A stretch of DNA of 64,000 nucleotides, from contig NZ_FLSP01000005.1 in NCBI RefSeq assembly GCF_900091315.1, positions 62,001 to 126,000 of the forward strand, given 5' to 3'. Both the position numbers and the translations under genes were made by a program. Source of the stretch: Streptomyces sp. DI166. Lineage in GTDB: Bacteria > Actinomycetota > Actinomycetes > Streptomycetales > Streptomycetaceae. The notes under the pieces are model-generated. The model was not told the origin of the DNA. It did no database searches and worked only from the letters and a program-made list of their open reading frames with translations. Shown in pieces: positions 6,331-37,191 of this stretch (its first letter is position 1; each line of letters starts with the position of its first letter).

Positions 6331-8769
6331 ATGAACGCATCCACGAACGATCCGCAGGAAGAACTGGCGGCCCGGCTGCGGATGCTCCAGGAGCTGTCCG
6401 GGCTCGGCGTCCGCGCGCTCGCCCGGGAGGCGGGGCTCAGCTCCTCGTCCCTGTCCCGGTACCTCAACGGGCAGACCGTGCCGCCGTGGCCGGCCGTGGT
6501 CGCCCTGTGCCGGCTGGTCAAGCGCGACCCGCGCCCGCTGCGGCCCCTGTGGGAGCGGATCTCCAGCCCGCTGCCCGCGCCCCCGAAGAGCAGCCGCCAG
6601 GCCCGCCCGCGCCCCCGCAACGACCTGCCGCGCGACGTGCCCGACTTCACCGGCCGTGCGGAGGAGCTGGCCGCGGTGTTCGCCGCCGTCGACAGCCACC
6701 GCGCGGTCTCCGTGGACGGGATGGCGGGCGTCGGCAAGACCTCCCTCGCCGTGCACGCCGCGCACCGCCTGGCCGACGGCTTCCCCGACGGACAGCTCTA
6801 CGTCGACCTGCACGGCTTCACCGAGGGCCGCCTCCCGCTCGACCCCGACTCGGCGCTGCGGATGCTGCTCGGCGCGCTGGACGTCCCGTCCGAGCGGGTC
6901 CCGCAGGAGGGGCTGGAGCAACTGGCCGCCTGTTGGCGCGCGGAGCTGGCGGACCGTCGGGTCGTGGTGGTCCTCGACAACGCCGCCGACGCGGACCAGG
7001 TACGGCCGCTGCTGCCCGGCGCCGGGGACTCCGTCGCCCTGATCACCAGCCGCAACCGGCTGTTCGGCCTGGACGAGGTGCCGCCGGTCTCCCTGGACGT
7101 GCTCGGCCCCGAGGAGGGCGCGCAGTTGCTGGCGCGGGCGAGCGGGGAGAGCGGCGGCCCCGAGGGCAGGCTGGCCCGTGACCCGGAGTCGGCGGCCGAG
7201 GTGCTTCGGCTGTGCGGGCGGTTGCCGCTGGCGCTGCGGCTGGCAGGGGCCCGGCTGCGGCACCGGCCGGGCTGGACCGTGGGCATCCTGGCCGAGCGGC
7301 TCGCCGAGGGGACGGGCGAGTTCGACACCGCGTTCGCGATGTCGGTGCGTCAACTGGACCGCCCGCACGCCCGTTTGTTCCGGCTGCTGGGCCTGCTGCC
7401 CGGGGAGTCCTTCGACGAGTACGTGGCGGCGGCACTGGCGGACGTGCCGGTGCGCACGGCGCGGGCCATGCTGGAGGACCTGGTCGACGCCCACCTCGTA
7501 CAGCAGCCGTCGGCGGGCCGCTACCGGCTGCACGATCTGGTGCACCAGCACGCGCGCCGCGCCTCGGCCGAGGAGGACCCGGCGGCCGAGCGGGAACGGG
7601 CCCTGGTGCGGGTGCTGGACTTCTACGTCCACACGGCGGCCGCCGCCGACGCCGCGATGCCGTTCGTGTCACCGGACCGCGCGGTCGCGGTGGGGCCCGC
7701 CCCGGCCGAACTCCCCCGATTCGCCGACAAAAACGCCGCCTTCGGCTGGCTCACCACGGAGTACGGCAACCTCGTCGCGGTGTTCGAGACCGCCGCGGCG
7801 ATCGGCGCGGACGCTCATGTCTGCGAACTGCCGCGCTACTTGAGGTCGTACTTCGCGCGCCGGTGCGGCACGACCCACCTCAACGCCCTCTTCGAGCGGG
7901 CGCTTGCCGCCGCGGAACGGCTGGGCGAGCCGCTGCGGCTGGCGGAGGCGTACAGCGATCTGGGTTTCGCCCGCTACAACGCGGGCCGTACGGCGGAGGC
8001 GGCCGAGGCGTACGCGGCGGCCCGGCTCCGCCTCAAGGAGGCGGGGGACGGCCGTGCCGAGGCGGAACTGACGTTGCGCCGGGGCTATTTGAGCTGGGAC
8101 GCGGGACACGTCGAGGAGCCGCTTGAGCTGTTCCGGCTCGCGGGGAAGCTGTACACCGACGCGGGCTGTCCCGAGGGCGCCGCGCACGCGGCCGCCGCCG
8201 AGTCCTGGGCACTGCTGCAACTGGGGCAGTCCGAGGAGGCGGCGCGGCTGGCCCGCGAGGTGCTGGAGGTTCCGCACGCCGACGCCGCGTGGCCGCCCGC
8301 GCTGACCGCGCGGATCGTACTCGGGGTGGCGCTGTCCCGGGAGACCCCCGAGGCGGCCTCGGACCACCTCCGGCAGGCGCTGTCGCTGGCCCGGGAGGAC
8401 GGCCATCTGCACAACCAGGCGTGGTGTCTGAACTGCCGGGGTGTGGCACTGCGGCACATGGGCCGGTACGAGGAGGCGCTTGCCAGCCACCGTGAGGCCT
8501 TCGAGCTGCTGGACGAGCTGTTCGAGGAGCACTGGAAGATCCACTTCCTCAACGGCTACGCCGAGACCTGCCGGCTGGCCGGGCTGCCCGACGAGGCGCT
8601 GGGACTGCACCGGCAGGCCCTCGAACTGGGCCCGAGGCTCGGCAACCGGCACGAGGAGGCCGAGGCACACGAGGGCATCGCACGCGTACTGGACGGAACG
8701 GACCCGGAGCGGGCGGCTGAACACCGGGCGGCGGCACGGGTGGTGAGGGAGTCGCTGACAGCGGTGTGA
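6331..8769 (+). CDS. XRE/NB-ARC/TPR transcriptional regulator
   Basis: 812 residues from the ATG at 6331, which has a GGGGGA ribosome site. The order is: a Cro/XRE-type helix-turn-helix (about 12-65, with VRALAREAGLSSSSLSRYL), a proline/arginine linker, an NB-ARC ATPase with P-loop GMAGVGKTS (130-138) and Walker B-like VVVVLDNAAD, a winged-helix region, then TPR-like repeats to the end. This is an AfsR-like layout with an XRE domain in place of the SARP domain. Such proteins are nucleotide-switched cytoplasmic regulators whose TPRs receive a signal; the targets are unknown. In-frame upstream ATGs, such as 6178, would add Cys-rich repeats; I prefer 6331 because of its ribosome site and conventional N-terminus. 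It is a single-gene unit. Confidence 0.9.
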   Translation: MNASTNDPQEELAARLRMLQELSGLGVRALAREAGLSSSSLSRYLNGQTVPPWPAVVALCRLVKRDPRPLRPLWERISSPLPAPPKSSRQARPRPRNDLPRDVPDFTGRAEELAAVFAAVDSHRAVSVDGMAGVGKTSLAVHAAHRLADGFPDGQLYVDLHGFTEGRLPLDPDSALRMLLGALDVPSERVPQEGLEQLAACWRAELADRRVVVVLDNAADADQVRPLLPGAGDSVALITSRNRLFGLDEVPPVSLDVLGPEEGAQLLARASGESGGPEGRLARDPESAAEVLRLCGRLPLALRLAGARLRHRPGWTVGILAERLAEGTGEFDTAFAMSVRQLDRPHARLFRLLGLLPGESFDEYVAAALADVPVRTARAMLEDLVDAHLVQQPSAGRYRLHDLVHQHARRASAEEDPAAERERALVRVLDFYVHTAAAADAAMPFVSPDRAVAVGPAPAELPRFADKNAAFGWLTTEYGNLVAVFETAAAIGADAHVCELPRYLRSYFARRCGTTHLNALFERALAAAERLGEPLRLAEAYSDLGFARYNAGRTAEAAEAYAAARLRLKEAGDGRAEAELTLRRGYLSWDAGHVEEPLELFRLAGKLYTDAGCPEGAAHAAAAESWALLQLGQSEEAARLAREVLEVPHADAAWPPALTARIVLGVALSRETPEAASDHLRQALSLAREDGHLHNQAWCLNCRGVALRHMGRYEEALASHREAFELLDELFEEHWKIHFLNGYAETCRLAGLPDEALGLHRQALELGPRLGNRHEEAEAHEGIARVLDGTDPERAAEHRAAARVVRESLTAV

Positions 8770-34758: not shown

Positions 34759-34770
34759 GGCCGGGGTCCT

Positions 34771-34974
34771 GGGGCCTTTCGTTTGGATCAGCCTGGCTCT
34801 GATCGACGGTCCGTCGTGACTGAGCCGAGCGGGGTCTGGTGCGTGCAGCTGCAAGGCGGAGGAGGGAGTCGACGCGGAGCGTCGGCGACCGACGACAACG
34901 CGGCTGGGGGTCCCCCCTCTGGGGGAGTGCGTGCCAGACCCCGCGACGCCGGGATGATCCAAACGACAGGCCCT
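34771..34974. mobile_element. MITE-like palindromic element, 204 bp
   Basis: The ends are imperfect 20-bp inverted repeats (34771-34790 and 34955-34974, 18 of 20 matches; GTTTGGATCA against TGATCCAAAC). Inside are an 11-bp inverted pair GCGGGGTCTGG/CCAGACCCCGC (34829-34839 and 34934-34944) and hairpins CGACGG-T-CCGTCG, CGACGC-GGA-GCGTCG, GTCGG-CGA-CCGAC and GGGGGTCCCCC. There is no open frame of note. The layout fits a non-autonomous transposable or REP-like element moved in trans. I recall similar terminal sequences from other Streptomyces genomes but cannot verify this here. No target-site duplication is obvious. Confidence 0.65.
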
Positions 34975-35024
34975 AGGGCGGTGTGCCGATGTGCGGGGCG
35001 CGGGGGCCGTGCTTGGCCGGCGGC

Positions 35025-35245
35025 ATGACCGGATTCAGCGAGGCGGAACCGGCGTACCTGCGGACGCAGCGGATCGGCGGCAGCTGCGCCTCGCCGCGGA
35101 TGTCGGCCCCGCGCACCTTCCACGGCCGTACGCTCACCACGTCGTCCACGACCAGACCGGCCCGCACGAGCTGGGTACGCACTTCAGCCAGGAGGTGATC
35201 CGGATCCGTCCGCGCCGGATCCACAGCTGGGGGCTCGAAGGCTAG
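35025..35245 (+). pseudogene. PPOX-class (F420-dependent) oxidoreductase remnant with an inverted middle
   Basis: Plus-strand pieces give the two ends of a PPOX-class flavin/F420 protein: MTGFSEAEPAYLRTQRIG from 35025, and EVIRIRPRRIHSWGLEG up to the stop at 35243-35245. Between them the plus strand makes no family-like sequence, but the minus strand over about 35081-35173 reads AGLVVDDVVSVRPWKVRG and ADIRGEAQL. That is the conserved central motif of the same family (VVDD, PW-VRG, RGEA). So the middle has been inverted, and roughly half the gene (the flavin-binding part) deleted. CAGCT/AGCTG words at both joints could have served as microhomology. It cannot make an active enzyme. The MITE-like element ends 50 bp upstream. 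Its last bases overlap the ogt stop. Confidence 0.72.
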
Positions 35246-35727
35246 AGCGCGTGTTCGAGGGTCAGCAGGGTCGTTTTGCGGGTGAGGCCGCCCGCGTAGC
35301 CCGTCAGGGTGCCGTTCGCGCCGATGACCCGGTGGCAGGGGCGGAGGATCAGGAGGGGGTTGGCGCCGATGGCGCCGCCCACCGCGCGTACGGCTGCCCG
35401 GGGAGCGCCGATGCGGGCCGCGACAGCGCCGTAGGTGGTGGTGACGCCGTAGGGCACGGCGTCGAGGGCGGACCAGACCCTGCGGCGGAATTCGGTGCCC
35501 TCGGGCTGGAGGGGGAGGTCGAATTCCTTCAGGTCGCCGGCGAAGTAGGCGGACAGTTGCTCGGCGGCGGTACGGAAGGCCGCCGGGTCGTGGCGCCAGG
35601 TCTCCTCGACGACCGGGGCGTTCCTCTGGTCGGGGACCGAGAGGGAGGTCAGGGCTCCGGTGCTCGCGTCCGCCGTGAGCAGGAGCGGGCCGAGGGGGCT
35701 GTCCAGGCTCGTCCAGAGCGTGGTCAT
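35242..35727 (-). CDS. ogt: Methylated-DNA--protein-cysteine S-methyltransferase
   Basis: 161 residues. The C-terminal domain contains the invariant active-site motif PCHRV, with the acceptor Cys131. The helix-turn-helix region VPYGVTTTYGAVAARIG is also present. The protein removes O6-alkyl groups from guanine in a single suicidal transfer. Its ATG shares a base with the stop of the upstream Ada-AlkA gene (TGATG), so the two are coupled and form an alkylation-repair unit. Its stop codon overlaps the stop of the PPOX pseudogene on the other strand. Confidence 0.95.
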   Translation of the reverse strand: MTTLWTSLDSPLGPLLLTADASTGALTSLSVPDQRNAPVVEETWRHDPAAFRTAAEQLSAYFAGDLKEFDLPLQPEGTEFRRRVWSALDAVPYGVTTTYGAVAARIGAPRAAVRAVGGAIGANPLLILRPCHRVIGANGTLTGYAGGLTRKTTLLTLEHAL

Positions 35728-37115
35728 CAGCGGTTCTCCAACTCTCCTGCGGCGCGCAGGTGCAGTAGGGCGTAGGAGCGCCAGGGGCGCCAGGTGTCGG
35801 GGACGGCCGCTCCGGGCGGGGCGACGTCCGGGTCGCCGAGGGCACGGGTGCGCACCACGGCCACGGTACGGGCGTGAAGGCCGGGCAGGGCGAGCAGTGC
35901 CGCCTCCGCGTCGTCCCGGTCGGCGCCCGGGTCCAGGCGTACCGTGCCGTCGGCGAGGGCGGCGCACAGGGCGCCCAGGGGGCCGTGCCGCTCCGCCTCG
36001 GCGATCACGGCCGGTTCCGGGAAGAGGTGGGTGAGGCTGCCGCAGGGCGCGTCCAGCGCCTTTCCGCACGCCCGGACCAGCCGCTCGGCCTCGGCGGACC
36101 CCACCAGCGCCCGTACGGCGAGTTCCTCGGGGTCGGCGGCGCCGGGCGACCTCAGCCCCGGCCGGGCGGCGACCAGCGGGGCGAGCCGTGGGTCGGTGCC
36201 GAGCCGTTCGTCGACGGCGTAGGGGTCGGCGTCCAGGTCGAACAGGCGGCGCAGGCGCTGGACGGCGGTGGTGAGGTCGCGGGGGTCGGTGAGGTGGAGC
36301 CGGGCGTCCAGCCAGCCGCCGGGGTGGGTGCCCCCGCCGGTGCCGCCGGGCTGTTCGTCGACGGCGACGATGCCGTTGCCGTGCGGCAGGCGCAGGGTGC
36401 GCCGGTAGGTGCGGCGGCCCGGCTCACCGCTGACGTCCTCCACGCCGGGCACCGCCTCGGCCTGGAGCAGGTCGAAGACGGCACCGGACTGGTAGGGACC
36501 GCGATGGGCGAGCCGGAGCGGGATGCCCGCGGTCGGGGCGGCGGCCCTGCGGGCGGAGCGGCCTGCCGCGCGGCGCAGCTCGCTGGGGGTGCGGGCGTAG
36601 ACGGCCCGGACGGTGTCGTTGAACTGCCGGACGCTGGCGAAGCCGGCCGCGAAGGCGATCTCGGTGATCGGCAGGTCGGTGGTCTGGAGCAGCACGCGCG
36701 CGGTGTGCGCCCGCTGGGCGCGGGCCAGCGCGACGGGCCCGGCGCCCAGCTCGCCGGTGAGCTGCCGCTGCACCTGACGGGGGCTGTAGCCGAGGCGTGC
36801 GGCGAGCCCGGCCACGCCCTCGCGGTCGACGACGCCGTCGCCGATGAGCCGCATGGCCCGGCCGACGACGTCCGCGCGGACGTTCCAGTCGGCCGAGCCG
36901 GGCGCGGCGTCCGGTCGGCACCGCCGGCAGGCCCGGAACCCGGAGCCCTGCGCGGCGGCGGCCGTCGCGAAGAAGCGCACGTTGCGGCGCTTGGGGGTGA
37001 CGGCGGGGCAGCTGGGCCGGCAGTAGATGCCGGTGGTCTCGACGGCGAAGTAGAACACGCCGTCGAACCGGGCGTCCCGGCTGCGCACCGCCTCGTACCT
37101 GGTGTCCTCGTCCAT
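35727..37115 (-). CDS. Ada-AlkA fusion: methylation-sensing AraC regulator with degenerate glycosylase domain
   Basis: 462 residues from the ATG at 37115 (a GTG sits one codon upstream). The Ada zinc domain carries all four cysteines (32, 36, 63 and 66; GIYCRPSCPA and ACRRC), where one Cys accepts methyl from phosphotriesters. An AraC-type helix-turn-helix follows (about 85-190). Then come the AlkA N-terminal domain and the helix-hairpin-helix glycosylase domain. In the last, the hairpin is altered (LPGLHARTV in place of LPGIG-WT). The segment after RALGDPDV jumps straight to WRPWRSYALLH, losing about 20 residues that normally hold the catalytic Asp. Sensing of methylation and activation of ogt are likely to survive; base excision probably does not. 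Confidence 0.85.
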   Translation of the reverse strand: MDEDTRYEAVRSRDARFDGVFYFAVETTGIYCRPSCPAVTPKRRNVRFFATAAAAQGSGFRACRRCRPDAAPGSADWNVRADVVGRAMRLIGDGVVDREGVAGLAARLGYSPRQVQRQLTGELGAGPVALARAQRAHTARVLLQTTDLPITEIAFAAGFASVRQFNDTVRAVYARTPSELRRAAGRSARRAAAPTAGIPLRLAHRGPYQSGAVFDLLQAEAVPGVEDVSGEPGRRTYRRTLRLPHGNGIVAVDEQPGGTGGGTHPGGWLDARLHLTDPRDLTTAVQRLRRLFDLDADPYAVDERLGTDPRLAPLVAARPGLRSPGAADPEELAVRALVGSAEAERLVRACGKALDAPCGSLTHLFPEPAVIAEAERHGPLGALCAALADGTVRLDPGADRDDAEAALLALPGLHARTVAVVRTRALGDPDVAPPGAAVPDTWRPWRSYALLHLRAAGELENR

Positions 37116-37191
37116 CACACGGTCCAGTCTCGGTCAGTTCCGGGACCGGCGCTGGCGGGATTCGGACACCGCGCCGGCGCCCCGCGGGCCG

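Follow-up and report, generated by a model that had tools for sequence, protein, structure and literature searches.

Short-range template-switch mutations have been described with a four-point model in great ape genomes by comparison of close relatives (PMC7954356), and non-homologous end joining by Ku/LigD has been described for Streptomyces (PMC5124664). Both are relevant to a rearranged gene of the NCBIfam family TIGR04023, the PPOX-class F420-dependent oxidoreductases of the MSMEG_5819-type (Pfam PNPOx_N, PF01243). In many Streptomyces a TIGR04023 gene is located between a DUF456 gene and ogt, and the intact orthologs at this place have a length of approximately 122 aa and belong to both TIGR04023 and PNPOx_N. 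The curated whole-protein cut-off of TIGR04023 is 85.6 bits, and the ortholog of the best-matching relative (genome G183) scores 151.7 bits at the same place. Here, a stretch of 64,000 nt from contig NZ_FLSP01000005.1 of Streptomyces sp. DI166 (the window) was analysed, in which this place is very probably occupied by a TIGR04023 pseudogene of the order A-rc(B)-C, derived from an ancestral A-D-B-C with loss of D in what we infer to be a single complex event. A denotes the N-terminal piece, D the lost segment, B the centre and C the C-terminal piece.

The window copy lies in the conserved genomic context DUF456 - PPOX - ogt - AlkA. The upstream neighbour is the gene of a DUF456 protein (PF04306; 34276-34758, plus strand). 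The convergent downstream neighbour on the minus strand encodes a methylated-DNA--protein-cysteine methyltransferase (ogt; 35242-35730), the stop codon of which overlaps that of the pseudogene, and is followed by a gene for an AlkA/Ada-type DNA glycosylase/regulator (35727-37118, minus strand), which was used as anchor for finding the locus in relatives. Additionally, a minus-strand ORF of 290 aa (34973-35845) spans the pseudogene centre and, out of frame, ogt, and might be mis-annotated as a gene; no Pfam match was found for it.

Three remnants of the gene were identified. The N-terminal remnant (codons 1-18, MTGFSEAEPAYLRTQRIG) is located at 35025-35078 on the plus strand and starts with the ATG at 35025. 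The N-terminal region is 79% identical to the orthologs of genomes G183 and G351, with an end between 35077 and 35082 that varies with the ortholog compared, and past MTGFSEAEPAYLRTQRIG the family resemblance of the plus strand ends. The region upstream of this remnant (CCGATGTGCGG...GTGCTTGGC) is also conserved. The central remnant (LVVDDVVSVRPWKVRGADIRGEAQL; 25 codons, LVVDD...RGEAQL) is inverted, being read from the minus strand at 35080-35155, and on its own matches positions 66-89 of TIGR04023 with an E-value of 1.4e-7 and 31.5 bits. The C-terminal remnant (TGPHELGTHFSQEVIRIRPRRIHSWGLEG) follows on the plus strand at 35156-35245, ends with TAG at 35243-35245 and matches positions 99-115 of the family weakly (E 0.01, 15.8 bits). 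At the DNA level, blastn against single relatives yielded up to 93% identity for the centre (E down to 9e-22) and at most 94% identity over 81 bp for the C-terminal piece (E = 9e-29). The matches of these two pieces fall within one short locus but on opposite strands, a pattern that recurs across the genus, and a consensus ortholog matches the spot in the window on both strands, with 93% identity on the plus strand and 82% on the minus strand. Judged from these alignments, the resemblance of the pieces to the PPOX gene is not due to chance. Translations, blastn and the TIGR04023 match thus confirmed the earlier note, in which a PPOX/F420-type gene with both ends on the plus strand and its conserved centre on the minus strand had been proposed. 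It had also been considered that the minus-strand segment might belong to a different, intact protein family; the segment matches only TIGR04023, the same family as its flanks.

The window gene comprises 221 bp and the intact gene of G183 369 bp, a difference of 148 bp. In the intact orthologs in which both anchors were found, the spacing from the N-terminal piece to the centre amounts to 147 bp without indels, and relative to the intact gene approximately 147 bp (49 codons, 40% of the length) have been lost between these two pieces. When three ungapped pieces were fitted with 59 orthologs, the last N-terminal base was placed mainly at 35077-35081 and the last inverted base mostly at 35155. 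The left joint between the N-terminal piece and the inverted centre, at which the approximately 147 bp or 49 codons of the intact orthologs are gone, is therefore given as 35077-35082, and the right joint between the inverted centre and the C-terminal piece as 35155/35156, according to most orthologs. The inverted piece has a length of 76 bp (35080-35155) and directly adjoins, to a precision of about 3 nt, the piece that natively follows it on the right. Comparison of the pieces with the orthologs shows the change of a putative ancestral order A-D-B-C to A-rc(B)-C with loss of D, and the combined inversion and deletion originally supposed for a single short gene of PPOX/F420-type is supported by the intact orthologs. 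The inverted interval had been placed at 35081-35173, which the ortholog spacing and the three-piece fit corrected to approximately 35080-35155. The words AGCTG/CAGCT, reported at both joints and considered as recombination sites, were rejected as such: only CAGCTG is found near the left joint, and the AGCTG located at about 35169 belongs to normal coding sequence (E-L) of the C-terminal piece, 13 bp beyond the start of this piece. The inversion is therefore not flanked by these words. At either joint the shared sequence probably amounts to about 0-1 nt, and a single G is left unmatched at the left one, as judged from the codons of orthologs of which the nearest intact one (G183) is approximately 82% identical over the locus.

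The frame of the window copy is disrupted in comparison with the intact orthologs at the same place, and its pieces, scored separately, stay below the family cut-off with 31.5 bits for the centre and 15.8 bits for the C-terminal piece. The window copy is therefore a pseudogene of the family and not a working member; a working protein of the TIGR04023 family cannot be produced from it. No second, intact ortholog was found in the genome to which the window belongs, the next best matches being paralogs with 29-38% identity. In order to judge the age of the decay, the retained codons were inspected at near-invariant sites, and the window deviates at 2 of 30 of them (L12I and E86Q in alignment numbering), while leave-one-out analysis of 57 orthologs gave a mean of 0.14 deviations and a value of 2 for only one ortholog. 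For sites with at least 90% conservation the window deviates at 3 of 37, with a mean of 0.74 in the 57 orthologs. This small excess suggests a mild, recent decay. Most of the divergence would then predate the break, and the pseudogene is probably young.

The centre and the C-terminal piece have the orientation opposite to that in the window in all 70 loci from other genomes that hold both, a set in which a few genomes are counted twice, and the orientation of the N-terminal and C-terminal pieces agrees in 59 of 59 loci with both found. The sequence pattern of the right joint occurs once in the window and had no match in a collection of 84,980 species genomes, which possibly does not include the window's own genome, in an exact search tolerant at most synonymous sites. 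Neither the same rearrangement nor the same joint was found in sister species or other relatives among the compared loci, which also answers the earlier concern that relatives might carry this arrangement with an expressed gene. As far as the compared data show, the unmatched joint pattern and the reverse orientation in all 70 loci indicate a rearrangement private to this species or lineage. The distribution of the PPOX gene itself is patchy, 27 of 80 loci of relatives being with and 53 without it. Since the gene is absent from these 53 loci, it is most likely dispensable and its loss tolerated. In loci without the gene, the matches to DUF456 and ogt are often separated by only 13-100 bp.

The neighbour of the pseudogene is a MITE-like repeat at about 34770-34975 with the terminal inverted repeats CTTTCGTTTGGATCA ... 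TGATCCAAACGACAGG, which corresponds to the palindromic element noted before at a distance of about 50 bp and indeed ends approximately 50 bp upstream of the ATG. The genome contains around 10 more copies, complete or almost so, with lengths of roughly 190-285 bp, and the element was apparently inserted at a CTAG-like site. A member of the same family is located at 6375-6565 of the corresponding locus (L070) of Streptomyces sp. TSRI0107, at the matching position upstream of an intact PPOX gene. An interior stretch of this copy differs hardly at all from the window copy, and the similarity of the flanks is only about 80%. This may point to independent insertions into the same CTAG-like target or to constraint on the element. 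The best-matching relative (G183) is without the element. A part of the palindromic element in the break, as had been suspected, is unproven for a dispersed repeat with a similar copy beside an intact gene, and the inversion can be explained without the repeat.

Explanations other than a decayed PPOX gene were also weighed. A short inverted segment in coding sequence close to a palindromic repeat is reminiscent of a reversible DNA switch (inverton) turning the gene on and off, but no pair of inverted repeats with arms at 35080 and 35155 frames the segment, and flipping it back would leave 49 codons, about 40% of the gene, still missing. These two observations exclude a phase switch in practice, and the other state was seen in no relative compared. 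Similarly, there is next to no chance that a distinct minus-strand gene merely resembles the PPOX centre: although the 290-aa ORF crosses the region, it is without a Pfam family, overlaps ogt out of frame and has a reading frame that is not conserved in relatives, while the 25-aa PPOX centre matches TIGR04023 only and is flanked by sequence matching both termini of the PPOX gene. An assembly artefact, which could be considered for a draft genome of 242 contigs, is very improbable, as the spot is internal to a contig of 161,838 bp, a 76-bp inversion with a 147-bp deletion in unique sequence would be an unusual assembly error, and conserved sites in the pieces have been substituted, as expected of decay.

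More serious is a rival that competes only with the single-event part of the preferred explanation, namely that the same pseudogene arose by two events, an inversion of approximately 225 bp (D and B) and a later deletion of approximately 147 bp comprising the inverted D. This route leads to the same final order and fits nearly as well, and in one reconstruction the word CCAG would border the second deletion on both sides and might have guided slippage or annealing. Nevertheless, both events would have to use shared boundaries, 4-5 nt at the left joint are unexplained in the two-event reconstruction, and the intermediate was seen in no relative compared. Two events are a real possibility, and the less probable one. 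The simplest route would be a single event, by end joining or template switch, in which D was removed and B flipped in the ancestral A-D-B-C with almost no shared sequence at the joints. This could have occurred by breakage followed by Ku-type end joining of the flipped fragment, and Ku is encoded in the genome (PF02735, 166 bits). Alternatively, a replication template switch could have led to the copying of 76 bases from the opposite strand, followed by return to the original one. The three-fragment alignment fits the four-point template-switch model, the ancestor being too distant for scoring it against end joining. Since the nearest intact gene is approximately 18% diverged, the ancestral bases at the joints are reconstructed ones, and end joining, template switch and inversion before deletion are all candidate routes. 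It is doubtful, and slightly less probable than the two-event route, that the locus represents a fixed natural bacterial case of a single-event short-range template switch in a coding gene, with 76 bp reversed and 147 bp skipped.

The locus represents gene decay of an ordinary type in a clean form, and is real and well supported. Such a pseudogene would be missed by ordinary annotation, as the gene is not recognisable on either strand by itself, and a systematic search of ortholog sets for fragment pairs on opposite strands could reveal the frequency of inversion-deletions in bacteria.

In comparison with the TIGR04023 family, all three window pieces are homologous to its members and the cut-off is exceeded by the intact ortholog that G183 has at this place, whereas the window copy has lost approximately 49 of the 122 codons and carries the centre in reverse orientation, so that the protein is not encodable. 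With the four-point model (PMC7954356) the locus shares the arrangement of a fragment from L to 1, a reversed fragment from 2 to 3 and a fragment from 4 to R. In these terms points 2 and 4 would adjoin in the window, corresponding to an inversion with the interval from 1 to 3 lost. It differs from the described cases in that its ancestor is approximately 18% diverged, the switch points are rough and end joining is equally possible. To the latter process as described for Streptomyces (PMC5124664) the locus is similar in that the genome encodes Ku and that the joints, judged from ortholog codons, would have about 0-1 nt of homology.
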